Shown here: piece by piece, positions 1 through 10,443 of the stretch
How the letters are laid out: every line of letters starts with the position of its first letter
Numbering within the stretch: the stretch's first letter is position 1
From: Herminiimonas sp.
Lineage (GTDB): Bacteria > Pseudomonadota > Gammaproteobacteria > Burkholderiales > Burkholderiaceae
NCBI GenBank assembly: GCA_014377155.1
Contig: JACMQD010000270.1
Span: forward strand, 1-10,443
Reading direction: 5' to 3'
DNA length: 10,443 nucleotides
Translations under genes and position numbers: made by a program
Notes under the pieces: generated by a model
Databases searched by the model: none
Seen by the model: only the letters and a program-made list of their open reading frames with translations
What the model was told of the DNA's origin: nothing

Positions 1-265
1 GCACAAGGCATTTACGGTCAACGGTATCGTAGTCAATATCGCTTCATACCAGGTCAAGCCGGGTGACATCGTCGCCGTGCGCGAAAAAGCCAAAAAGCAG
101 ATCCGTATCGCCGAGGCGCTGTCTCTGGCTGAACAATCGGGCATGCCTGCTTGGGTTGCTGTGGACGCCAAGAAAATGGAAGGTACGTTCAAGACTCTTC
201 CAGACCGTAGCGATATTGCTAACGACGTCAATGAGTCGTTGATCGTCGAACTGTACTCACGTTAA
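1..265 (+). CDS. rpsD: 30S ribosomal protein S4, C-terminal part (5' end outside window)
   Basis: Only the last 87 residues are present, read from base 2 and ending at TAA 263-265. The family is about 207 residues long. S4 binds 16S rRNA early in assembly of the small subunit. In many proteobacteria it also represses translation of its own operon. The fragment starts inside the S4 RNA-binding domain (HKAFTVNG, then [14 protein letters not shown]) and runs through the conserved tail to [12 protein letters not shown], the normal S4 C-terminus. It is followed by rpoA and rplQ, the usual end of the alpha operon (rpsM-rpsK-rpsD-rpoA-rplQ). The truncation is only the window edge. Identification is secure from the sequence. 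Confidence 0.97.
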
Positions 266-281
266 TTACCGTATTGCAGTG

Positions 282-312
282 GCCCGCCCTCTTTCGAAGG
301 CGGGCATTTTTT
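282..312 (+). terminator. Intrinsic terminator or attenuator between rpsD and rpoA
   Basis: A perfect 7-bp GC stem (GCCCGCC 282-288 with GGCGGGC 299-305) encloses a 10-base loop. An A and six Ts (307-312) follow directly. This is the form of a Rho-independent terminator, placed 16 bases after the rpsD stop and 57 bases before the rpoA start. I see no convincing promoter between it and rpoA, so it probably terminates only partly and tunes the ratio of ribosomal protein to polymerase subunit. Confidence 0.75.
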
Positions 313-369
313 CGTAATGCCGTCAGCCTTATCGGTGTAATGAGCCGAGGGTATTGAAAAGGACATTTC

Positions 370-1347
370 ATGCAGAATAGTTTGTTGAAGCCACGTATCA
401 TCGAAGTCGAAGCACTCGGTGCAGGACACGCCAAGGTCGTCATGGAGCCGTTTGAGCGCGGCTATGGTCATACGCTTGGCAATGCATTGCGCCGTGTGTT
501 GTTGTCGTCGATGGTGGGCTACGCGCCTACCGAAGTTACGATCGCCGGTGTCGTGCACGAGTACTCGTCGCTGGACGGCGTGCAAGAAGACGTTGTCGAT
601 ATGTTGTTGAATCTCAAGGGTGTAGTCTTCAAGTTGCATAATCGCGACGAGGTCACGCTGACATTGAAAAAGGAAGGCGAAGGTTCGGTTCTGGCTTCCG
701 ATATCGACCTGCCGCATGACGTCGAATTGGTCAACCCGGATCACGTGATTGCCCATCTGACAGCCGGCGGCAAGCTCGACATGCAGATCAAGGTAGAAAA
801 AGGTCGCGGCTACGTTCCCGGCAATGTGCGTCGCCTCTCGGAAGATGCCAACAAGACAATCGGCCGTATTATTCTTGACGCATCGTTTTCTCCGGTTCGT
901 CGCGTTTCTTATTCGGTCGAGTCGGCACGCGTTGAACAGCGTACGGATCTGGACAAGTTGGTCATCAATATCGAGACCAACGGCGTGATCTCACCGGAAG
1001 AAGCGATTCGCCAATCCGCACGTGTCTTGGTCGACCAGTTGAATGTATTTGCGGCATTGGAAGGGACAGAAGCGACTGCTGAGACACCATCGCGTGCACC
1101 TTCGGTCGATCCAATCCTGTTGCGTCCGGTGGATGATTTGGAGTTGACGGTCCGTTCGGCAAATTGCCTGAAGGCTGAAAATATCTATTACATTGGCGAC
1201 CTGATTCAGCGCAGCGAAAACGAATTGCTCAAAACGCCTAACCTGGGTCGCAAATCGCTCAATGAAATCAAGGAAGTCCTTGCATCGCGCGGTTTGACAC
1301 TCGGAATGAAGCTGGAAAATTGGCCACCTGCTGGTCTCGAAAAGTAA
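370..1347 (+). CDS. rpoA: DNA-directed RNA polymerase subunit alpha
   Basis: Encodes a 325-residue alpha subunit, close to the 329 of E. coli. The N-terminal domain dimerises and is the platform on which beta and beta' assemble; the C-terminal domain contacts UP elements and activators. The N-terminal domain carries the hallmark [18 protein letters not shown] at residues 30-47. A variable linker lies around residues 231-247 ([17 protein letters not shown]). The C-terminal domain starts near [14 protein letters not shown] (255-268), where R262 matches E. coli R265, the main UP-element DNA contact. It continues through [15 protein letters not shown] and ends with the conserved LENWPPAGL. The ATG at 370 is preceded by a strong ribosome binding site, AAAAGGA (357-363). 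An intrinsic terminator lies upstream and rplQ lies 121 bases downstream. Nothing in the protein is abnormal. Confidence 0.99.
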
Positions 1348-1354
1348 TACGGCA

Positions 1355-1371
1355 GGAGGCATGTCGCCTCC
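1355..1371 (+). other. Hairpin in the rpoA-rplQ spacer
   Basis: GGAGGC (1355-1360) and GCCTCC (1366-1371) form a perfect 6-bp stem around a 5-base loop, seven bases after the rpoA stop. There is no T tract behind it, so it does not look like an intrinsic terminator. It could protect the rpoA mRNA end, pause polymerase or guide RNA processing before rplQ. The rest of the 121-base spacer shows no promoter I would defend. Confidence 0.4.
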
Positions 1372-1468
1372 GCTGATTTGTTGTGAACATCAAGTACCGG
1401 CCCGCGGATTTCAGCATCGAAATACGATAGAAGAGCTGGACTAAAATTGAAAACTGAAAGGAATTACC

Positions 1469-1864
1469 ATGCGTCACCGTCACGGCCTACGTAAATTAAA
1501 TCGCACTTCATCCCATCGCTTGGCAATGCTGCGTAACATGACTGTTTCGCTGCTGCGGCACGAAGCCATCAAGACTACGTTACCGAAAGCTAAGGAACTG
1601 CGCCGCGTCATCGAGCCGATCCTGACTCTTGGCAAGACAGACACTCTGGCCAACAAGCGCCTCGCATTCAGCCGTCTGCGCGACCGCGAAATGGTGTTGA
1701 AGCTGTTCGCCGAACTCGGCCCGCGCTACGCCAATCGTAACGGTGGTTATCTGCGTATCTTGAAGATGGGATTTCGCGTTGGTGACAATGCACCGATGGC
1801 GTACATCGAGCTGATGGATCGTCCGGAAGTCGCCGACGAAGCCGAAGTCGAAACCGTCGACTAA
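1469..1864 (+). CDS. rplQ: 50S ribosomal protein L17
   Basis: Encodes a 131-residue L17, a protein of the large ribosomal subunit that sits near the exit-tunnel face. The family signature is intact: it begins [17 protein letters not shown], followed by [14 protein letters not shown] and [18 protein letters not shown], and ends in [20 protein letters not shown] with a short acidic tail ([12 protein letters not shown]), as often seen in betaproteobacteria. The ATG has a good ribosome binding site, GAAAGGA (1456-1462). It is the last gene of the ribosomal-protein operon and a strong terminator follows 27 bases after its stop. Confidence 0.98.
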
Positions 1865-1891
1865 GCGGTTGATTTACTTGCGATGCAATCG

Positions 1892-1920
1892 AAGCCAGGC
1901 GAAAGCCTGGCTTTTGTTTT
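1892..1920 (+). terminator. rplQ: Strong intrinsic terminator after rplQ
   Basis: A perfect 9-bp stem, AAGCCAGGC (1892-1900) with GCCTGGCTT (1905-1913), is capped by a GAAA tetraloop and followed by a T-rich run interrupted by one G (1912-1921). This is a textbook Rho-independent terminator and marks the end of the alpha ribosomal-protein operon. Confidence 0.92.
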
Positions 1921-1928
1921 TGGTGCGT

Positions 1929-1957
1929 TGAGATTCGATTGATAATCGGTTGCTAAT
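1929..1957 (+). promoter_or_regulatory. Possible sigma-70 promoter for the NodIJ-like exporter
   Basis: TTGAGA (1929-1934) and GCTAAT (1952-1957) are separated by 17 bases, a fair but not strong match to -35 and -10 boxes. The spacer holds an inverted repeat, CGATT-GAT-AATCG (1936-1948), and the palindrome AATCGATT (1955-1962) overlaps the -10 box, which could be an operator. A promoter is expected here because the preceding operon ends in a strong terminator. Confidence 0.35.
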
Positions 1958-1960
1958 CGA

Positions 1961-2026
1961 TTGTCACATCTGTGGCAAGATACGCTCACTCAATTTGCTG
2001 CGTGATGGACGCCACCGACTTGCCAT
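1961..2026 (+). promoter_or_regulatory. Dyad-rich leader before the exporter ATPase gene
   Basis: Two alternative RNA hairpins share one arm. The first pairs TTGTCAC (1961-1967) with GTGGCAA (1972-1978), with one G-U pair and a 4-base loop. The second pairs TGGCAAG (1973-1979) with CTTGCCA (2019-2025). Its 3' arm runs into the proposed ATG, and a small inner stem forms from ACGC (1982-1985) and GCGT (2000-2003). They cannot form at once. The second would hide the start codon, and no good Shine-Dalgarno sequence precedes that codon. Regulation by this fold is only a hypothesis. Confidence 0.25.
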
Positions 2027-2966
2027 GACCTACAACGCCGAAGCACCAATACTCGTCGTAGATGACCTATACAAGTCGTATGGCAGCGATGACGACAAGC
2101 GCGTTATCATCGACGGTCTTTCATTCAGTTTGCGACGCGGCGAATGCTATGGGCTGCTCGGACCTAACGGCGCCGGCAAGACCACGACGCTGCGGCTGTG
2201 CCTGGGGCTGACGGCACCTGACCGCGGCACGATTATGCTGGCCGGCCTGCCCGTGCCGCAAGCAGCGCGTCAAGCGCGGGCGCGCGTGGGTGTGGTGCCG
2301 CAGGGCGATAATCTTGATCCCGATTTTACAGTCGCCGAAAACCTGCTTGTCTTCGGGCGCTATTTTGGGATAGCGGACAGCCAAATCAACCAGCGCATCC
2401 CCGATCTGCTGGAATTTTCCAACCTCACTGCCAAGCGCGATGCTCGCATCAGCGAACTGTCTGGCGGCATGAAGCGCAGGCTGACACTGGCCCGCGCGCT
2501 CGTCAATGACCCCGATCTTATATTTATGGACGAGCCAACCACCGGACTCGATCCGCAGGCACGGCACATGATCTGGGAGCGTTTGAAAAGCCTGCTTAGC
2601 CAGGGCAAGACTATTTTTCTGACGACGCATTTCATGGACGAAGCGGAGCGATTGTGTGACCGCCTTGCGGTCATCGATCACGGCCGCATGATTTCCGAAG
2701 GCTCGCCGCGTGATCTGATTGCGCAACATATCGAATCCGAAGTCGTCGAGGTGTACGGGGAGAATGCGCGCCAGTGGGGCGAGGCGGAAGGTCGGACCAA
2801 GTCGGCTCGTCTTGAAATGAGCGGTGAAACCGTGTTTTGCTATACCAACGATGCGCAGCCGCTGCTGGCGGGTCTGCAAGGTGTGCGTGGCGTTCGATAC
2901 ATCCATCGGCCGGCGAATCTGGAAGATCTGTTCCTGAAGCTTACCGGTCGTGAAATGCGGGATTGA
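2025..2966 (+). CDS. ABC exporter ATP-binding subunit, NodI/DrrA type
   Basis: Encodes a 313-residue cytoplasmic ATPase that would power the membrane partner encoded directly downstream. All nucleotide-binding motifs are present: Walker A GPNGAGKT (46-53), Q-loop Q93 in [30 protein letters not shown] sequence, signature LSGGM (145-149), Walker B LIFMDE (165-170, catalytic E170), D-loop GLDPQ and switch histidine H202 in TTHFMDEAE. The Q-loop region [12 protein letters not shown] and the following LVFGRYFG are typical of the NodI group in the DrrA family, where NodI/NodJ of rhizobia export lipochitin oligosaccharides. I chose ATG 2025; an in-frame TTG at 1950 would add 25 residues that do not resemble the family. 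The stop lies one base before the permease start. The substrate is unknown, and a nodulation role should not be assumed since no nod genes are nearby. Confidence 0.9.
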
Positions 2967-2967
2967 C

Positions 2968-3753
2968 ATGAACAAGATCGACTACGCCTTGCCGGTATTT
3001 TCGCTACGTTTCCTGCCGATCTGGAAGCGCAATTTTCTGGTGTGGAAAAAACTCGCGGTCGCCAGTGTGCTCGGTAATATTGCCGATCCCCTTATCACCC
3101 TGATTGCCTTCGGATACGGCCTCGGCAGCTTACTGCAAAATATCAACGGCATTCCCTATATTCACTACTTGGCATCAGGGTCGATCTGCATGTCGATCAT
3201 GATGGCGTCGTCCTTCGAAGCGCTGTACTCCGCGTTTTCAAGGATGCACATGCAAAAAACCTGGGACGCATTACTCAACGCGCCCATTGCGTTGGACGAC
3301 GTGGTGCTGGCCGAGATGCTTTGGGCAGCGGCCAAATCGACGTTTTCCGGTATCGCTATCATCGGCGTCATGTTTTTGCTCGGTATCGGCCTGCATCCGC
3401 ACATCGCGCTGGTGTTGCCCCTTCTGTTCTTGATCGGCATGACGTTTGCGTCGATCGGACTGGTAGTCAACGCGCTGGCACAAGGCTATGATTTTTTTAC
3501 TTATTACTTTACGCTGGTGTTGACACCAATGATATTCCTGTCGGGGGTGTACTATCCAACCGCGCAATTGCCGACCTGGCTGCAAGCGGTTTCGCAATTG
3601 CTGCCGCTGAGTGCGGCTGTCAGCCTGGTCCGGCCGCTGATTCTGGGCGACTGGCCTGACGCCCCGGTGACACACTTGAGTATACTTTTGGCGTATTGCC
3701 TGTCCGGTTTTTACGTCGCTACCGTTTTGACGCGGCGTCGCCTGCTCAAATAA
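2968..3753 (+). CDS. ABC-2 type exporter permease, NodJ/DrrB type
   Basis: Encodes a 261-residue inner-membrane protein, the usual NodJ size. About six hydrophobic segments are visible (roughly residues 36-56, 68-88, 118-141, 147-170, 178-196 and 236-256). The ABC-2 signature region falls around 181-223: FTLVLTPMIFLSGVYYP, then LPTWLQ and LLPLSAAVSLVRPL. The C-terminus is basic (TRRRLLK), as expected at a cytoplasmic end. Start ATG 2968 sits one base after the ATPase stop, so translation is probably coupled. An in-frame GTG at 2950 would overlap the ATPase gene and is less likely. With its partner it should form a homodimeric-permease exporter. The substrate cannot be read from sequence. The last codons overlap a promoter for cutA. 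Confidence 0.88.
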   Translation: MNKIDYALPVFSLRFLPIWKRNFLVWKKLAVASVLGNIADPLITLIAFGYGLGSLLQNINGIPYIHYLASGSICMSIMMASSFEALYSAFSRMHMQKTWDALLNAPIALDDVVLAEMLWAAAKSTFSGIAIIGVMFLLGIGLHPHIALVLPLLFLIGMTFASIGLVVNALAQGYDFFTYYFTLVLTPMIFLSGVYYPTAQLPTWLQAVSQLLPLSAAVSLVRPLILGDWPDAPVTHLSILLAYCLSGFYVATVLTRRRLLK

Positions 3754-3756
3754 AAT
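3727..3756 (+). promoter_or_regulatory. Sigma-70 promoter for cutA-dsbD
   Basis: TTGACG (3727-3732) and TAAAAT (3751-3756) each match the consensus at five of six positions and are 18 bases apart. The -10 box includes the stop codon of the permease gene. Transcription would start near 3763, giving a leader of about 20 bases before the cutA ATG. No terminator separates the permease gene from cutA, so some read-through is also likely. Confidence 0.6.
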
Positions 3757-3782
3757 GTAAGCTTTGCGACAGCGTCAAGACA

Positions 3783-4115
3783 ATGGATCAAGTGTTACTC
3801 GTGATGACTTCCATGCCGGATGAAGGCAGTGCGCATGATCTGGCCAGCTTGCTAGTGGATGCCGGCCTTGCGGCATGCGTCCACATCCTGCCGGGCATGC
3901 AATCGGTGTACCGCTGGGACGGCGTGCTTCACACGACCAGCGAAGTAACGGTGCAAATTAAGACCGTACAATCGTGTTATGCCGAGGTGGAGCAGGCAGT
4001 CCTGCAATCGCATCCTTATGATGTGCCCGAAATCATCGCCGTGCCCGTAGTCGATGGCTTACCTGCCTACCTCGATTGGGTCCGGCAAAGTACCAGGAAA
4101 GACCGACATGCTTGA
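3783..4115 (+). CDS. cutA: CutA-family divalent-cation tolerance protein
   Basis: Encodes a 110-residue CutA1 protein (112 in E. coli), a small ferredoxin-like-fold protein that forms very stable trimers. The family is linked to copper and other divalent-metal tolerance, but its biochemical role is not settled. Hallmarks seen are GLAACVHILPGMQSVYRWDG (28-47), EVTVQIKT (54-61), and HPYDVPEIIAVPV (77-89) followed by YLDWV. C32 in the ACVHI motif is the cysteine often discussed for metal binding. The start is ATG 3783; no clear Shine-Dalgarno sequence precedes it, and an in-frame ATG at 3696 would only add residues overlapping the permease gene. Its end overlaps dsbD by 8 bases. The cutA-dsbD (dipZ) pair is also adjacent in E. 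coli, where both belong to the cut locus. Confidence 0.93.
   Translation: MDQVLLVMTSMPDEGSAHDLASLLVDAGLAACVHILPGMQSVYRWDGVLHTTSEVTVQIKTVQSCYAEVEQAVLQSHPYDVPEIIAVPVVDGLPAYLDWVRQSTRKDRHA
4095..4098 (+). promoter_or_regulatory. dsbD: Ribosome binding site that fixes the dsbD start
   Basis: AGGA, inside CCAGGAAAG within the end of cutA, lies nine bases before ATG 4108. It supports that ATG over the in-frame ATG at 4054, which lies further inside cutA and has no comparable site. Confidence 0.6.
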
Positions 4116-5988
4116 GGATGTTCAACAACCCCTTGCCGCGCTGCGCGGCAAGCCCGATGTCAACGGCGTCCTACTACGTCTTGCAGGCAAAGTGCTCGCG
4201 CTGCTTACTGTCGCGCTGATGGCATTTTCCCAGCCTGTTTTGGCCGACGAAGAATATCTCGATCCCGAAGTCGCCTTCAAGTTTTCGGCAAAGATGGCTG
4301 ACTCCAAGACGGTCGAGGTGCACTATGCCATCGCCGACGGTTACTACATGTATCGCGAACGTTTCAGTTTCAAGGCAAGCGGCGCGACGGTGGGCGAACC
4401 CGTCATCCCCAAAGGCAAGGTCAAGTTCGACGAAACCTTCAGCAAGGATGTCGAAACGTATCGCGGTTCTATCGTGATCCGGTTGCCTGTCACGGCAAGC
4501 GGCGACTTCACCTTGACGGCGACCAGCCAGGGATGCTCCGACAAAGGCCTCTGTTACGCACCGATGGATTCGGCTGCCACACTGTCTACTACGGGTGGCG
4601 GAGGGCTGATGACAGCCATCCGGGGCGCGACGCAACCGGCAATCGACATGCCGGCAGCATTGCAGGCCGATCTGCCGCGAGTCGCAGGGACGTCTTCCAC
4701 TGGCGTATCGTCCGCATCGCTCTCGGAAACGGGACGCATCGAGGCATCGTTACAGAGTGGCAAGCTGCTGGTGATATTGCCTTTGTTTTTGCTGCTCGGG
4801 TTAGGCCTGGCGTTCACGCCGTGCGTCTTGCCGATGGTCCCGATCCTGGCGTCGATTATTGTCGGTGAGGGATCGCAGGTCAGTCGACGGCGTGGGTTCT
4901 CGCTGGCGGCGATTTACTCACTGGGCATGGCAATCGTCTATACCGCTCTAGGTATTGCGGCGGGACTTATCGGCGAAGGGCTGGCGGCCAGCCTGCAAAA
5001 TCCTTGGGTGCTGGGCACCTTTGCTGCGGTGATGGTCGGGTTATCGTTGTCGATGTTCGGATTCTATCAATTACAGGTGCCGGCGTCGCTGCAAAACAGG
5101 CTGGTGAGTGCGTCTGGCAAGCAATCTGCTGGCAAATCGGTCGGTGTATTCACCATGGGCGCCATTTCTGCCTTGATTGTCGGTCCCTGCGTGGCAGCGC
5201 CACTGGCCGGCGCGCTGCTATACATCAGCCAATCGCGCGATGTCCTGCTCGGCGGCAGCGCCCTGTTTGCGATGGCGATCGGCATGAGCATACCGCTGCT
5301 GCTGGTCGGACTGTCGGCAGGCTCTTTGTTGCCGCGCGCAGGAGCGTGGATGGATGGCGTCAAGCGATTTTTCGGTGTGCTCATTCTGGCCGTGGCGCTG
5401 TGGCTGGTGGCGCCCGTCATTCCGGATACGGCACAGATGATCGGCTGGGCTGCGCTCGGCATCGGCTACGGCGCCTATGCCTTGTGGGGTCAGCGGCTCG
5501 GTTGGATCACCAAGGCGCTCGGCCTGGTTTTCGCGGTATTCGGGATAGTGCAACTGGTGGGTGTCGCCACTGGCGGGCGCGACGCACTGGCGCCACTGGC
5601 GCACATGCGTGGCGCTGCTCCCCGGCATGTGGAGTTCGTGCGCATTCGATCGGTTGCCGAACTCGACGCGGCGTTGGCAAAATCAGGGGACAGGACAACG
5701 TTGCTCGATTTCTATGCCGATTGGTGCGTGTCTTGCAAGGAAATGGAAAAGTTGACATTTTCTGATCCCCGCGTGCAAGCGCAGTTTGGCAAGATGCAGT
5801 TATTGCAGGTGGATGTAACGGCTAATTCAGCCGAGGACAAGGCCTTGCTCAAGCGCTTCAACCTGTTCGGCCCGCCCGGCATTATTTTTTTCAACAAACA
5901 AGGAAGTGAAATCCGCGGCGGTCGCGTGATCGGCTATCAGGCGACCGAAAAATTCCTGGCTTCGCTGGCCCTGGTTTCAAGTTTTTGA
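4108..5988 (+). CDS. dsbD: Thiol:disulfide interchange protein DsbD
   Basis: Encodes 626 residues in the three-part DsbD layout, which carries electrons from cytoplasmic thioredoxin across the inner membrane to periplasmic DsbC, DsbG and the CcmG cytochrome c maturation pathway. A signal peptide with a long n-region ends near VLA-DE (46/47). The periplasmic alpha domain follows with C143 and C149 in QGCSDKGLCYAP. The membrane beta domain spans about 218-488, with roughly eight segments and the buried cysteines C239 (FTPCVLPMVP) and C361 (VGPCVAAPLAG). The C-terminal thioredoxin-like gamma domain has C540 and C543 in DWCVSCKEME, and a conserved FGPPG turn. All six redox cysteines are therefore present and the protein should be active. 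It overlaps cutA by 8 bases and is probably cotranscribed and translationally coupled with it. No clear terminator follows. Confidence 0.96.
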   Translation: MLEDVQQPLAALRGKPDVNGVLLRLAGKVLALLTVALMAFSQPVLADEEYLDPEVAFKFSAKMADSKTVEVHYAIADGYYMYRERFSFKASGATVGEPVIPKGKVKFDETFSKDVETYRGSIVIRLPVTASGDFTLTATSQGCSDKGLCYAPMDSAATLSTTGGGGLMTAIRGATQPAIDMPAALQADLPRVAGTSSTGVSSASLSETGRIEASLQSGKLLVILPLFLLLGLGLAFTPCVLPMVPILASIIVGEGSQVSRRRGFSLAAIYSLGMAIVYTALGIAAGLIGEGLAASLQNPWVLGTFAAVMVGLSLSMFGFYQLQVPASLQNRLVSASGKQSAGKSVGVFTMGAISALIVGPCVAAPLAGALLYISQSRDVLLGGSALFAMAIGMSIPLLLVGLSAGSLLPRAGAWMDGVKRFFGVLILAVALWLVAPVIPDTAQMIGWAALGIGYGAYALWGQRLGWITKALGLVFAVFGIVQLVGVATGGRDALAPLAHMRGAAPRHVEFVRIRSVAELDAALAKSGDRTTLLDFYADWCVSCKEMEKLTFSDPRVQAQFGKMQLLQVDVTANSAEDKALLKRFNLFGPPGIIFFNKQGSEIRGGRVIGYQATEKFLASLALVSSF

Positions 5989-6051
5989 TAGAGCAGGCGG
6001 CTTGTCGGGTCGACATCGCTAAAAGCCAATATGATCAATACGATTCGGTTG

Positions 6052-6080
6052 TTGATTTATAAACCGGACCGACCTATAGT
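6052..6080 (+). promoter_or_regulatory. Strong sigma-70 promoter for the peroxiredoxin gene, with inverted repeats
   Basis: TTGATT (6052-6057) and TATAGT (6075-6080) lie 17 bases apart and match consensus well. Transcription would start near 6087. Two inverted repeats surround it: CGGTT-N11-AACCG (6046-6066) across the -35 box, and ATAGT-G-ACTAT (6076-6086) across the -10 box and start region. Both are in good positions for a repressor or activator. I cannot name the regulator. Confidence 0.65.
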
Positions 6081-6110
6081 GACTATCGAATGACTTTTTG
6101 AGGAAGCGAC

Positions 6111-6749
6111 ATGACATTACGCCTTGGTGATATTGCGCCGGATTTTGAACAGGATTCATCAATTGGAAAACTGAAATTCCATGAGTGGGCTGGCGATTCA
6201 TGGGTGGTCCTTTTTTCGCATCCGGCCGACTTCACGCCGGTTTGCACCACCGAACTCGGCTTGACGGCCAAGCTCAAACCGGAGTTCGACAAGCGCAACG
6301 TCAAGGCGATTGCGCTGTCGGTCGACGCTGCTGACCGCCATGTGCAATGGATCAAGGATATCGAAGAGACGCAGGGCGCGCTGGTCGACTTCCCCATCAT
6401 CGCCGATGGCGACAAGAAGGTCGCACTGCTCTACGACATGATCCATCCGAATCAATCGGAAACCATGACGGTGCGTTCGCTGTTCGTGATCGATCCGAAG
6501 AAGAAAATTCGGCTCACCATTACCTATCCGATGAGTACCGGCCGCAACTTCGATGAAGTGCTTCGCGTCATCGATGCATTGCAGCTGACCGATGGCTATA
6601 CGGTGGCCACACCGGGCAACTGGCGTGATGGTGATGACGTCATTATTCCTCTCACGATCCAGGACGACGCGGTAATCAAAGAAAAATATCCGAAGGGGTA
6701 CACTGCGCCAAGGCCTTATCTTCGCATCACCCCCCAGCCGAACCGGTAA
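6111..6749 (+). CDS. 1-Cys peroxiredoxin, Prx6 family
   Basis: Encodes a 212-residue cytoplasmic peroxidase that reduces hydrogen peroxide and organic or lipid hydroperoxides. The active-site motif P-x3-T-x2-C is present as PADFTPVC (38-45), giving peroxidatic C45 with T42, and the catalytic arginine is R122 in VRSLFVID. C45 is the only cysteine in the whole protein, so there is no resolving cysteine and an outside thiol must recycle it. The C-terminal extension with TPGNWRDGDDVIIP and KGYTAPRPYLR is diagnostic of the Prx6 group and separates it from AhpC. The start has a good ribosome binding site, GAGGAA (6100-6105). The gene is monocistronic, with its own promoter and a terminator 18 bases after the stop. 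It is probably induced by oxidative stress, but the sequence does not show by which regulator. Confidence 0.95.
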   Translation: MTLRLGDIAPDFEQDSSIGKLKFHEWAGDSWVVLFSHPADFTPVCTTELGLTAKLKPEFDKRNVKAIALSVDAADRHVQWIKDIEETQGALVDFPIIADGDKKVALLYDMIHPNQSETMTVRSLFVIDPKKKIRLTITYPMSTGRNFDEVLRVIDALQLTDGYTVATPGNWRDGDDVIIPLTIQDDAVIKEKYPKGYTAPRPYLRITPQPNR

Positions 6750-6767
6750 GTAGGTTCTCGCCAGATG

Positions 6768-6796
6768 AAAAGCCTGCCTTGTTGCAGGCTTTTTTT
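6768..6796. terminator. Intrinsic terminator shared by peroxiredoxin and corA
   Basis: AAAAGCCTGC (6768-6777) and GCAGGCTTTT (6784-6793) form a 10-bp stem with a 6-base loop. On the plus strand seven Ts follow the GC core (6790-6796), a strong terminator for the peroxiredoxin gene. On the minus strand only four Ts follow, so it would be weaker for corA, whose stop is five bases away (6801). Confidence 0.88.
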
Positions 6797-6800
6797 GCGA

Positions 6801-7919
6801 TTAGCGCTGATTCGCGGCACGGTCCTCGATATAACGCTTGCGCCGGAAAACCAGCAACAGGGCAATCACGATGAAAGCCATGCCACCCATCGTGATCCAG
6901 AATCCGTTCTTGTCCTTCAGCAGCGGAATGTAGTCGAAGTTCATGCCGAATATGCCGGTAATCACCGTCAGCGGCATGAACAAGGCCGTGATGACGGTCA
7001 AGGTACGCATGATTTCGCTGGTGCGATGCGCCATTGCCGAAAAATGAATCTGTACCGCTGATTCGATCGACGATTCGAGTCGTCGGGCATGGTTCAGAAC
7101 CCGCGTGATGTGCTCCATCACATCGTTGATTCGGACCAGCAGCAAATCATTGGCACGGGTAGTGCCGACGTCGTTGTAGGTATCGACGAAGTGGTCGCGT
7201 AATTCCTGTACCGCATCATGCTGCTCTTCGCACAGGTGATCGAGCTTGCGCAATTCGATCCGCGCATCGAGCAGGGTGCTCCAGTCGGAAAATACCCGGG
7301 TCGGATGTAGCAGCGCACGTTGCCAGCGATCGATCTGGGCCGTCAAAGGCTGACGCAAATCCAGATATTGGTCGACCATGTCGTTTAGCAGGCGCAGCAT
7401 CAGCTCTTTCGGTGACACGGGCGGACGGGGACCGTGGGTGGTGCCCTCGGATTTCGCCTTGTATGCCAGCAGCCGGCTGCGCGCTGCCTCGACCGTTCGG
7501 CTGTGCTGCCCATGCACCGTCACCAGTGCCTGATCCAGCAGGAAGAATGTAACCGGCAACGTGGTCAGCTTGGTCAGTGCCTGCGGCAGCGCGCGCTTGT
7601 TCTTGGCGGGCATGGCCGTCATTGCATTTGCGATATCCGTTTCACTGCCGCCATTGAGCGCGAGCTTGCGAAACACCAGCATTTCGTAATCGCGAGTCGA
7701 GTCGAAATACGACGGATGTCGCAGGTTCAGCACATCCGTCAAATGCAGATCATAGATTTGCGTGGCAGTGGCTTGCAGAACAGCGTTGCGCCATCCCTCC
7801 GGATCGGCCGCCACTTCGTCGTGAGTCGAATCAATCCACAAGAAACTATCTGCCGGCAATGGTGTAGGAAGTGCCGCACCGAGCGTGACCTGTTTTTCAC
7901 TGATGAGAAAGATGTCCAT
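6801..7919 (-). CDS. corA: CorA-family divalent-cation channel
   Basis: Encodes a 372-residue inner-membrane protein of the CorA family, pentameric channels that mainly take up magnesium and sometimes cobalt or nickel. The large N-terminal cytoplasmic part (about 1-300) ends in a long helix. Two membrane helices follow at about 306-324 and 341-358, with the diagnostic GMN at 325-327 (GIFGMNFDYIP) between them. GMN rather than GVN favours CorA over the zinc transporter ZntB. The loop reads IPLLKDKNGFW, so the glutamate of the common MPEL sequence is absent, and ion preference is uncertain. The protein is longer than E. coli CorA (316), partly from a Pro/Lys-rich insert near 155-171. The start at 7919 lies inside the upstream hydroxylase gene (23-base overlap) with a weak GGA site before it, so translation is probably coupled. 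Confidence 0.92.
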   Translation of the reverse strand: MDIFLISEKQVTLGAALPTPLPADSFLWIDSTHDEVAADPEGWRNAVLQATATQIYDLHLTDVLNLRHPSYFDSTRDYEMLVFRKLALNGGSETDIANAMTAMPAKNKRALPQALTKLTTLPVTFFLLDQALVTVHGQHSRTVEAARSRLLAYKAKSEGTTHGPRPPVSPKELMLRLLNDMVDQYLDLRQPLTAQIDRWQRALLHPTRVFSDWSTLLDARIELRKLDHLCEEQHDAVQELRDHFVDTYNDVGTTRANDLLLVRINDVMEHITRVLNHARRLESSIESAVQIHFSAMAHRTSEIMRTLTVITALFMPLTVITGIFGMNFDYIPLLKDKNGFWITMGGMAFIVIALLLVFRRKRYIEDRAANQR

Positions 7920-9153
7920 GCGTTCCAGAGGAAGGGTTGGAGACGAAACGCAAGGCCAGTAGCGACAGGATGGCCAGCGCGATGATGGCGGCGCGTATTG
8001 GCATTGACAGAGCCGGCACGCCAAACCAGCTTCCGGTCAGCGCGACGGCCGCTACTGTGGCGAGCAGTCGACCGCACTCGAAAGTCGCATGCCGAGCACG
8101 GCTTTCCATCAGGCCACCGACGATCCATAACGTGGCGCAGAGCCATCCAGCATAGGCCAGCGCCTGGCCGACAGGCATCACTTTATGGGCCGCGAGAAAA
8201 TGCGTCGCCACCAGCAGCACGATGCTGAACTGGACGCCGCAGTAAAGCTGCGCAGCCAGCGTGAGCGTCGGCCGATACGCCGGCCTACCGATATCGAATG
8301 GCATGCCCGGCCATTTTGCAGCAACATCCGCCGGCCGCCAGCCCGGCCGTGCTAACCAGATTTTAAATTTATCCGCCAGCCGCTCGGTGCGCCATGCGTC
8401 GACCCAGATCGCCTTATAGACTTCGAGGTTGGCCCATAGCGGATTCCAGCTGCGCAGCGGAGTGCGCGTGCCATACACCACCGGCTCGGCATCGCGTTCG
8501 TCGATATAGGTACCGAACAGACGATCCCACAGGATCAGGATGCCACCATAATTCTTGTCCAGATAGACGTCGTTGACCGCATGATGAACGCGGTGGTTCG
8601 AGGGCGACACGAAGACCCGATCGAACCAGCCGAGCTTGCCGATCTGCTGCGTGTGTACCCAGAACTGGTAGAGCAGGTCGATCAGCGCCACCGCAGCAAA
8701 CACTTCGACCGGAAAGCCCAATATCGCCATCGGCACATAGAATATCCAGCCAAGCAAAGCGCCGCTGCTGGTTTGGCGCAATGCCGTCGACAGGTTGTAT
8801 TCTTCACTCTGATGATGCACCACATGCGCTGCCCACAACAGGTTGACTTCGTGCCCGGCGCGGTGCAACCAGTAGTAGCAAAAGTCGTACAGTAACAGGC
8901 CCGTCACCCACACCACGATGCTGTCAGCTGGCAGTTTGAAGAGCGCGACATGCTGCAGCAGCCAGGCGTAGATGCCGATTCGCACCACGCGCAGGAAAAC
9001 ACCGGCGACCTGGCTCATGACACCGAGGCTGATGCTGTTAATTGAGTCACTAAGACGATACGTATTGCGTTTGCGGACCAGGCCGATTGCCAGTTCCAGG
9101 AAGATCAGCAGGAAAAAAACCGGTGTGGCCAGCATGATGACTTTTTCTTGCAT
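7897..9153 (-). CDS. Membrane fatty-acid hydroxylase superfamily protein, AGMO/TMEM195-like
   Basis: Encodes a 418-residue integral membrane di-iron oxygenase. The histidine boxes are complete: H97-x3-H101 (LHRAGH), H110-x2-HH113-114 (HVVHH) and H187-x2-HH190-191 (HRVHH), plus H167 in FWVHT. The sequence around them (YYWLHRAGHEVNLLWAAH, SEEYNLSTALRQ, DKNYGGILILWDRLFGTY) resembles, as I recall it, animal alkylglycerol monooxygenase, which cleaves the ether bond of alkylglycerols with tetrahydrobiopterin. Plain sterol desaturases are nearer 300 residues. The extra C-terminal part here has about four membrane segments (roughly 297-320, 329-349, 362-379, 386-403), also as in AGMO. The tail is histidine-rich (THGHLSHQ). 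Start 9153 follows a good ribosome binding site. It sits between a lysoplasmalogenase gene and corA. The superfamily call is secure; the substrate is inferred. Confidence 0.85.
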   Translation of the reverse strand: MQEKVIMLATPVFFLLIFLELAIGLVRKRNTYRLSDSINSISLGVMSQVAGVFLRVVRIGIYAWLLQHVALFKLPADSIVVWVTGLLLYDFCYYWLHRAGHEVNLLWAAHVVHHQSEEYNLSTALRQTSSGALLGWIFYVPMAILGFPVEVFAAVALIDLLYQFWVHTQQIGKLGWFDRVFVSPSNHRVHHAVNDVYLDKNYGGILILWDRLFGTYIDERDAEPVVYGTRTPLRSWNPLWANLEVYKAIWVDAWRTERLADKFKIWLARPGWRPADVAAKWPGMPFDIGRPAYRPTLTLAAQLYCGVQFSIVLLVATHFLAAHKVMPVGQALAYAGWLCATLWIVGGLMESRARHATFECGRLLATVAAVALTGSWFGVPALSMPIRAAIIALAILSLLALRFVSNPSSGTHGHLSHQ

Positions 9154-9157
9154 CGCG

Positions 9158-9165
9158 TCCCCCTT
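9158..9165 (-). promoter_or_regulatory. Ribosome binding site that fixes the hydroxylase start
   Basis: Read on the minus strand, AAGGGGGA lies four bases before ATG 9153 and begins at the stop codon of the upstream gene. It supports this start over an in-frame ATG at 9219, which lies inside the upstream gene. Confidence 0.55.
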
Positions 9166-9845
9166 TAACTTCTGATGTTCGGCATTTCGCTGGCGGCCAC
9201 CGATCGCGCAATCAGCCACAGTGCGAAATAATAGGTACCTAGTATCCAGAGCGCGGACATGGCAAGCGGCGCATGAAACTTGTTATACGCCAGCACCGTA
9301 TCAGACGCCAGAAAAAACACGCCGCCCACTGCGGCAAAACGGCTGCTGGGTGTTTTCAACAGCAGGTAACGAATCACCGCTTGCGACGTCATGGCGACCA
9401 GGCAGAGCATGTAGACCAGGACCGGCAAGCGCAAGCCCGAGGCAAGACCGGGCCACAGGATTGCCAGATTGATGGCGCCGATGGTGCCGAACAGCAGCGG
9501 CACCCAGGCAATGGCAAATAGCCGCACGCCGGTTGTCAGCGCCCGCAAGAAAAACAGATGGGCAATCAGGAAGCTGCCAAGGCCGAGCAGAAAACCGGAC
9601 CGGGTGACCGTCGTCGGCAGCATCAGAAAAACATCACCGATCGCCGACAGTGCAATGCCGGTCAGCACCGCACGGCGGTAGCGCAGATCGACCGGCGCAG
9701 GAGCGCGCCAGGCCTCCACCAAGATCAGGAGCGTGGTGAGCGGCTTGAAAGCGAAATGCACCCAGAGCAGCCAGTCTCTGGCGCCGGCCCCGACGATTGC
9801 CAACACACCAGACGCGGCAATGCAGAGTGGCCGCAACCGGCTCAT
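9165..9845 (-). CDS. YhhN/TMEM86-family lysoplasmalogenase
   Basis: Encodes a 226-residue protein that is nearly all membrane segments (about seven or eight). Characterised members, mammalian TMEM86B and a Legionella homologue, hydrolyse the vinyl ether bond of lysoplasmalogens, giving a fatty aldehyde and a glycerophospho-base. Family motifs visible are FAFKPLTTLL (31-40), the acidic SAIGDVFLMLP (67-77), GSFLIAHLFF (90-99) and FFLASDTVLAYNKF (177-190), then GTYYFALWLIARS. The conserved acidic residues D71 and D182 are kept. I chose the start at 9845, 19 bases after the hemB stop; its ribosome binding site is weak, and a start at 9896 would overlap the end of hemB. It lies 11 bases before the AGMO-like gene and is surely in the same transcript. 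The family is secure; activity here is inferred. Confidence 0.87.
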   Translation of the reverse strand: MSRLRPLCIAASGVLAIVGAGARDWLLWVHFAFKPLTTLLILVEAWRAPAPVDLRYRRAVLTGIALSAIGDVFLMLPTTVTRSGFLLGLGSFLIAHLFFLRALTTGVRLFAIAWVPLLFGTIGAINLAILWPGLASGLRLPVLVYMLCLVAMTSQAVIRYLLLKTPSSRFAAVGGVFFLASDTVLAYNKFHAPLAMSALWILGTYYFALWLIARSVAASEMPNIRS

Positions 9846-9864
9846 GGCCGACCGCGCAGAACGA

Positions 9865-10443
<579 letters not shown>

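Follow-up and report, generated by a model that had tools for sequence, protein, structure and literature searches.

Do two neighboring genes for membrane enzymes in a Herminiimonas genome act together on ether lipids? The genes lie on the minus strand of contig JACMQD010000270.1 of Herminiimonas sp. (assembly GCA_014377155.1), of which we analyzed positions 1 to 10,443; this whole stretch of 10,443 bp is called the window. The first gene, yhhN (9165 to 9845, ATG at 9845), encodes a protein of 226 amino acids (aa) of the YhhN/TMEM86 lysoplasmalogenase type. The second (7897 to 9153, ATG at 9153) encodes a 418-aa putative di-iron oxygenase, a "sterol desaturase family protein" that resembles alkylglycerol monooxygenase (AGMO). 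Both assignments come from the list of open reading frames (ORFs), from Pfam matches (PF07947 and PF04116, respectively), and from matched residues. We consider it reasonably probable that the two predicted proteins function together as membrane enzymes in the breakdown of lyso-ether lipids, and we infer the substrates, the pterin cofactor, the co-transcription, and the physiological role of such a pair. It is the pairing and fusion of the two genes, and not their co-occurrence across genomes, that carry the argument for a functional link.

Pairing and fusion of yhhN with the oxygenase gene

A preliminary description of this DNA had placed the two genes 11 bases apart and proposed that they form a module for ether lipid breakdown, perhaps for scavenging or defense. 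The gene positions are as described. The gap between them (9154 to 9164, minus strand) measures 11 bp and holds a purine-rich, Shine-Dalgarno-like AGGGGGA before the oxygenase ATG; such a gap would imply that yhhN and the oxygenase gene are co-transcribed. The ORF list also offers longer starts, a GTG at 9219 for the oxygenase and an ATG at 9896 for yhhN.

An alignment of 15 oxygenases served as the query for a scan of 84,980 species genomes, and we examined the loci of the best 80 of 584 relatives, a sample that is therefore biased to close relatives. Loci were classed with our own profiles and a center-to-center distance of less than 2.5 kb, and several of the 80 end near the gene. At 35 of the 80 loci, one continuous open frame, usually about 570 to 630 aa long, encodes both the oxygenase and YhhN. 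At a further 18, yhhN lies directly upstream of the oxygenase gene in the same orientation. At one locus, yhhN is on the opposite strand at a distance of about 2.2 kb, and at the remaining 26, the stretch examined holds no yhhN. We found the adjacent type in Oxalobacteraceae (Undibacterium) and Lysobacterales (Dyella, Rhodanobacter, Fulvimonas, Oleiagrimonas, and others), with one locus classed only as Proteobacteria. In several adjacent loci (L010, L011, L018, and L030), the two genes overlap by 4 bp. The fused type belongs to Comamonadaceae in every record that gives a family (Acidovorax, Variovorax, Hydrogenophaga, Polaromonas, Ramlibacter, Delftia, Comamonas, and others); a few fusion records are classed only to Burkholderiales or higher.

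The fusions carry the oxygenase first and YhhN second, which is the reverse of the operon order. YhhN replaces the last part of the oxygenase, and there is no evident linker. Fifteen oxygenase residues and eight YhhN residues are invariant in all 24 of the fusions that were aligned, out of the 35 found. When the YhhN part of a fusion was used as the query in a protein search limited to candidates of about 340 to 1070 aa, which excludes free-standing YhhN by design, 1128 matches were obtained; among the matches listed, 116 of 120 proteins hold both PF04116 and PF07947. Therefore, the fusion is not an assembly accident. Nor is the adjacency found only in close relatives, an outcome that the preliminary description had allowed for: pairs occur in Oxalobacteraceae and in Lysobacterales, and the reverse-order fusion occurs in Comamonadaceae. 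That the two proteins are naturally fused in related bacteria suggests that they work together.

Another arrangement was seen on plasmids. Long AGMO-like oxygenase genes lie near transposases on a P. aeruginosa plasmid (NZ_CP115197.1; L001:4992-6799) and on a Delftia plasmid (NC_019312.1; L002:4992-6808). Each shares 4 bp with a neighboring gene, the product of which has 196 aa. The L002 copy of this protein has a weak match to DUF6962 (E=0.007), and 84 relatives of the protein were found. Similarity to YhhN, as would be expected if the protein were a hidden YhhN, was not detectable (hhalign probability, 1%). With the 196-aa protein, this oxygenase type may have another partner besides YhhN.

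AGMO-type features of the oxygenase

The oxygenase had been likened to animal AGMO (TMEM195, EC 1.14.16.5), and our comparisons bear this out. It matches PF04116 with an E value of 7e-31 and 107.8 bits (Pfam cut-off, 31). In a one-to-one comparison with a typed-in human AGMO sequence of 445 aa, the identity is 37% over 362 aa (E=1e-78); this human sequence fits all 15 residue positions that PMC7911779 lists in its Fig. 2 legend. This legend names 15 residues as essential for AGMO activity, nine histidines plus Q162, D233, N235, Y236, W243, and D244. All 15 are kept in the window oxygenase when it is aligned to human AGMO: the nine histidines correspond to H97, H101, H110, H113, H114, H167, H187, H190, and H191, and the six further residues correspond to Q127, D199, N201, Y202, W209, and D210. 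The two proteins also appear to have a C-terminal region in common, which is AGMP_C-like and spans about residues 302 to 368 of the window oxygenase; the precomputed database annotation lists PF24858.2, the AGMO C-terminal domain, for the window oxygenase. We considered whether this region could be a remnant of YhhN; similarity was not detectable (hhalign probability, 0.2%). The closest relatives that bear organism names are proteins of Paraherbaspirillum, Collimonas, and Noviherbaspirillum.

As a comparison set, we hand-picked 40 PF04116 paralogues from 197 matches in 67 YhhN-carrying Pseudomonadota genomes, favoring frames near 400 aa. They sort into long AGMO-like proteins (13), short AGMO-like proteins (12), and others (15). 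The short AGMO-like proteins, examples of which in Pseudomonadota are at L184, L185, and L188 to L190, are 270 to 430 aa long and have no match to the AGMO C-terminal region. A first oxygenase tree held 106 rows, including 16 fusions sampled at random; a second held 53 of these rows, with L187 and L193 left out as long branches. In the 53-row tree, human AGMO groups with all 37 long bacterial rows (support, 100/96), apart from the other PF04116 proteins, although the typed-in human sequence is the one animal AGMO in the tree and its exact placement is weak. The long bacterial rows alone have support of 95/87. The tree that the preliminary description had called for thus groups the hydroxylase with AGMO and, as far as sequence can tell, not with a clade of another known substrate.

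The complete set of 15 essential residues is present in 71 of the 78 long bacterial rows, made up of 17 of 19 adjacent oxygenases (the window included), 16 of 16 fused ones, and 38 of 43 unlinked ones. It is also complete in 10 of the 12 short AGMO-like proteins and in none of the 15 other PF04116 proteins; among these 15, Q162 is found in 2, D233 in 10, Y236 in 7, and W243 in 8, and N235 and D244 are found in all 15. As judged from these alignments, the 15-residue signature is one that divides the AGMO type from other hydroxylases and not long from short proteins. A PDB sequence search with the oxygenase (E<=1) found no relative, just two O-methyltransferase matches at E values of about 0.6. 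The predicted structure of the window oxygenase was discarded as too weak (mean pLDDT, 60.5).

The YhhN protein

Membership of the first protein in the YhhN/TMEM86 family, as originally proposed, was confirmed by a PF07947 match far above the cut-off (E=8.5e-39 and 133.6 bits; Pfam cut-off, 25.6) and by residues that have been studied by mutation. Eight proposed active-site residues have been mutated in TMEM86A/B, and in the part of that study cited here, all but the first-glycine mutants changed activity, most of them leaving less than 10% (PMC11994398). K34, G70, D71, H96, G174, S181, D182, and Y205 of the window YhhN are the counterparts of all eight, as mapped through an alignment to a fusion and then by motif and spacing to TMEM86A numbering. 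In its PF07947 match and these eight residues, the protein is like TMEM86A/B and the YhhN proteins of Legionella pneumophila and Mycobacterium tuberculosis. We found all eight residues in 53 of 54 YhhN linked to an oxygenase, versus 44 of 67 unlinked ones.

The YhhN/TMEM86 family is marked by eight transmembrane helices. In the predicted structure of a fusion, the YhhN half (residues 359 to 572) has eight helices, most blocks of which have a pLDDT above 85. A Foldseek comparison of this model with the PDB gave no match at E<=0.001, the model being good only in its C-terminal half, and a PDB sequence search with YhhN (E<=1) gave no match.

History of the pair and its locus

The YhhN tree was built from 123 domains, 121 after identical ones were removed; L153 was missed by the profile, and L011, with a partial YhhN, was too short. 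All 36 distinct fused YhhN form one clade (98/99). Together with 18 adjacent YhhN (the window and 17 loci), they fall within one 60-row clade (99/95), which has just six unlinked members. For three of the six, the source genome (G172, G264, or the Rubrivivax of L072) also encodes a long oxygenase, and the genomes of the other three (G302, G108, and G112) have no long oxygenase at E<=1e-60. A neighboring clade holds seven YhhN (from G072, G076, G080, G148, G164, G208, and G279); all seven source genomes encode a long oxygenase at another site.

The Oxalobacteraceae YhhN sits among the paired YhhN of Lysobacterales (97/89 with L032, with weaker support at wider forks), and the Oxalobacteraceae oxygenase lies beside Lysobacterales oxygenases in the oxygenase tree (98/97). 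Because the Oxalobacteraceae pair groups with Lysobacterales pairs in both trees, these data suggest that yhhN and the oxygenase gene travelled together between distant families.

In the window, the two genes share their strand and tight spacing with a gene on either side, both of which are context outside the module. Upstream is hemB (ALAD; 9865 to 10443, minus strand, PF00490), which is cut by the window end. Downstream is the gene for a CorA-family metal transporter (6801 to 7919, minus strand; PF01544, E=9e-41), the frame of which overlaps the end of the oxygenase gene by 23 bp. The order hemB-yhhN-oxygenase-corA is common to the window and three Undibacterium loci (L006 to L008). Collimonas humicola and Noviherbaspirillum aridicola have RpoA proteins about 97% identical to that of the window, which, together with the named relatives of the oxygenase, very likely places the source in Oxalobacteraceae. 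In genome G188, whose RpoA is 97% identical to that of the window, the yhhN site between hemB and the oxygenase gene is taken by an ORF of 704 aa (L290:7788-9902), the start of which presumably resembles that of a TonB-dependent receptor. In L292 (genome G304), from another lineage, about 0.8 kb separates hemB from the gene for a long AGMO-like oxygenase, and this interval holds a 211-aa opposite-strand ORF.

Linkage, co-occurrence, and cofactor in Pseudomonadota

In a survey of 299 evenly drawn Pseudomonadota genomes, we found YhhN in 67, with 70 genes in total. Linkage was sought with the long-oxygenase profile at E<=1e-5, with a flank of about 1.4 kb for 30 of the 70 YhhN, the three fusions included. 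The preliminary description had asked how adjacency compares with chance: three of the 70 YhhN are linked to an oxygenase, all as fusions, versus about 0.09 YhhN expected to have a direct PF04116 neighbor (67 genomes, 197 PF04116 matches, one gene per kb). The three are not independent events, because the fusions form one YhhN clade.

An AGMO-type oxygenase (E<=1e-60) is present in 58 of the 299 genomes, and 20 have the long kind. YhhN occurs in 45 of these 58 genomes versus 22 of the 241 others (odds ratio [OR], 34; p=4e-25). It is found in 14 of the 20 genomes with a long oxygenase and in 31 of the 38 with a short but no long one. A correlated-evolution (Pagel-type) test was run on 100 chosen genomes, 80 with either gene and 20 of the 219 with neither, on an RpoA tree of 96 tips (three genomes had no RpoA match, and one with a partial match was left out). 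The likelihood ratio (LR) for the AGMO type and YhhN was 24.3 (p=7e-5); it was 19.7 for long oxygenases alone and 20.6 for short ones alone. The control DUF1295, taken as the 30 genomes with at least 50 bits out of 109 with E<=0.001, gave an OR of 3.0 and an LR of 4.7 (p=0.32) with YhhN and an OR of 3.8 and an LR of 14.2 (p=0.007) with the AGMO type. Within genomes positive for another control family, MAPEG, the association of the AGMO type with YhhN had an OR of 11 (p=1e-10), carried mostly by the short AGMO-like proteins (OR, 14), and that of DUF1295 with YhhN had an OR of 1.1.

A pterin-4a-carbinolamine dehydratase is expected to help recycle the pterin of AGMO, according to the cited part of PMC3617469. 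Its family, PF01329, is present in all 37 genomes with a long oxygenase (20 from the survey and 17 reached through the loci) versus 21 of 40 survey genomes without an AGMO-type oxygenase or YhhN (Fisher p=3e-7); for the survey genomes alone, the counts are 20 of 20 versus 21 of 40 (p=6e-5). This distribution fits what would be expected of a pterin-dependent oxygenase.

Weighing the alternatives

Several observations count against a functional pair. Linkage is rare in the survey, and 6 of the 20 long-oxygenase genomes have no YhhN. The match of the oxygenase to PF24858 (E=2.5e-5, 24.7 bits) falls just below the Pfam cut-off of 28.3. The genes hemB, oxygenase, and corA stand together without yhhN in Collimonas humicola, Noviherbaspirillum aridicola, Oxalobacteraceae bacterium OM1, and G188, and a search of these four genomes for YhhN found none. 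Co-occurrence gives weak support, because the control MAPEG behaves alike: YhhN is found in 65 of 146 genomes with MAPEG versus 2 of 153 without (OR, 61; LR, 23.5), and MAPEG with the AGMO-type oxygenase gives an OR of 97 and an LR of 25.9. The correlated-evolution test is liberal, since a p of 0.007 or less was also obtained for MAPEG with YhhN, MAPEG with the AGMO type, and DUF1295 with the AGMO type. Within MAPEG-positive genomes, the association of the long oxygenase with YhhN is weak (OR, 3.1; p=0.02). Much of the co-occurrence may reflect large aerobic genomes, and the difference in PF01329 may reflect genome size.

Could the adjacency in the window be neighborhood noise, with yhhN gained and lost at the hemB-oxygenase-corA locus and the fusion elsewhere a separate accident? 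The gene does come and go at this one site (it is present in the window and L006 to L008 and missing in L004, L005, L033, and G188), the fusions form one clade and possibly stem from one event, and the overall rarity of linkage would fit as well. Yet the same YhhN clade is joined to the same oxygenase clade in opposite gene orders and in different families, both active sites are invariant in every aligned fusion (24 of the 35 found), and chance would supply only about 0.09 neighbors per 70 YhhN. Noise is thus already disfavored, and we regard it as very improbable. A more serious, though still unlikely, alternative is that the pair is real and its ether lipid label is wrong. The bacterial oxygenase clade would then have a substrate other than alkylglycerol, such as another hydroxylated membrane lipid, and YhhN would act on an aldehyde-, enol-ether-, or lysolipid-like product. 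Among the open-licence PMC papers listed, none reports the activity of a member of the long bacterial clade. The sole NCBIfam match of the oxygenase is to the ornithine-lipid hydroxylase OlsE (NF052566), with which it shares the fatty acid hydroxylase core (residues 78 to 223); its score of 63.6 bits is far below the equivalog cut-off of 475. The short AGMO-like branch holds the same signature in 10 of 12 rows, and therefore the signature does not fix the substrate. Ether lipid synthesis is not known from aerobic betaproteobacteria. What speaks for alkylglycerols is the grouping of the long bacterial rows with human AGMO at 100/96, with an apparent C-terminal region in common. The partner points the same way: it retains its catalytic residues and belongs to the very family in which the members studied so far cleave lysolipids at the vinyl ether.

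The source of the substrates bears on both this alternative and a further one. PF10520, the lipid desaturase family of the plasmalogen desaturases, was found in just 2 of 20 genomes (G014 and G015), the 20 being 18 genomes behind oxygenase loci and two survey fusion carriers. Its scarcity counts toward a substrate of another kind. If the substrates are ether lipids, it makes them more likely external, and detritus, hosts, or neighbors would be the most likely source. That the module turns over the bacterium's own ether lipids fits the two genomes with PF10520, and it is improbable given the 18 genomes without it, PF10520 being the one gene family of ether lipid synthesis that was searched. A mycobacterial YhhN is described, in the cited part of PMC9052158, as serving an organism without plasmalogens of its own.

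A proposed mechanism for the pair

In the reading that we favor, the pair would act on lyso-ether lipids. With O2 and a tetrahydropterin, the di-iron oxygenase would place a hydroxyl group on the carbon beside the alkyl ether bond, and the resulting hemiacetal would decompose to yield a glycerol derivative and a fatty aldehyde. These are the steps given for AGMO, which requires a free sn-2 hydroxyl and rejects vinyl ethers (PMC3617469). YhhN would hydrolyze the alkenyl (vinyl) ether of lysoplasmalogens, which is closed to AGMO, and would yield the same kind of product. Known YhhN enzymes hydrolyze this bond, need a free sn-2 hydroxyl, and release an aldehyde and glycerophospho-ethanolamine or -choline (PMC9052158). 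Because both known enzymes need the free sn-2 hydroxyl, the pair would cover both ether classes of one lysolipid pool, with the alkyl class opened by the oxygenase and the alkenyl class by YhhN.

A closer connection between the two enzymes can be imagined. The cited part of a 2013 review of AGMO treats as unsettled whether the hemiacetal collapses unaided or via an unidentified enzyme (PMC3617469), and the mechanism of YhhN is described as not yet established (PMC9052158). It is conceivable, if doubtful, that YhhN is the missing second enzyme of alkyl ether cleavage, resolving the hemiacetal made by the oxygenase and also making and resolving it from vinyl ethers. On chemical grounds, a lysoplasmalogenase that hydrates a vinyl ether should pass through the same hemiacetal. 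With the hemiacetal shared, a fused oxygenase-YhhN would therefore channel one intermediate, and a fused protein would be the expected form if YhhN resolves it.

Relation to known systems and significance

The window oxygenase differs from animal AGMO in being bacterial and known from sequence alone, and in the bacterial fusions, the last part of the oxygenase is replaced by YhhN. PEDS1/CarF, the plasmalogen desaturase of PF10520, shares with the proposed activity of the AGMO-type oxygenase an oxygen chemistry on ether lipids; it differs in belonging to another family and working in the opposite direction, making vinyl ethers. The bacterial YhhN described here adjoins or is fused to an AGMO-type oxygenase, a kind of partner that is not described for TMEM86A/B or the mycobacterial YhhN in the cited parts of those studies. 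Public annotation names single members "alkylglycerol monooxygenase" or "lysoplasmalogenase family protein." Searches of 5.39 million open-licence PMC papers listed none that describes the oxygenase/YhhN pair or fusion in bacteria.

AGMO has resisted purification, as noted in the cited parts of PMC3617469 and PMC7911779, and the bacterial AGMO-like forms and fusions would be a new protein family with which to try it. The fusion makes an enzyme-assisted hemiacetal step directly testable within a single protein. If YhhN does resolve the hemiacetal, animal AGMO might likewise be assisted by TMEM86-type proteins. If the pair acts as we propose, aerobic proteobacteria would own a compact route to break both classes of ether lipid.

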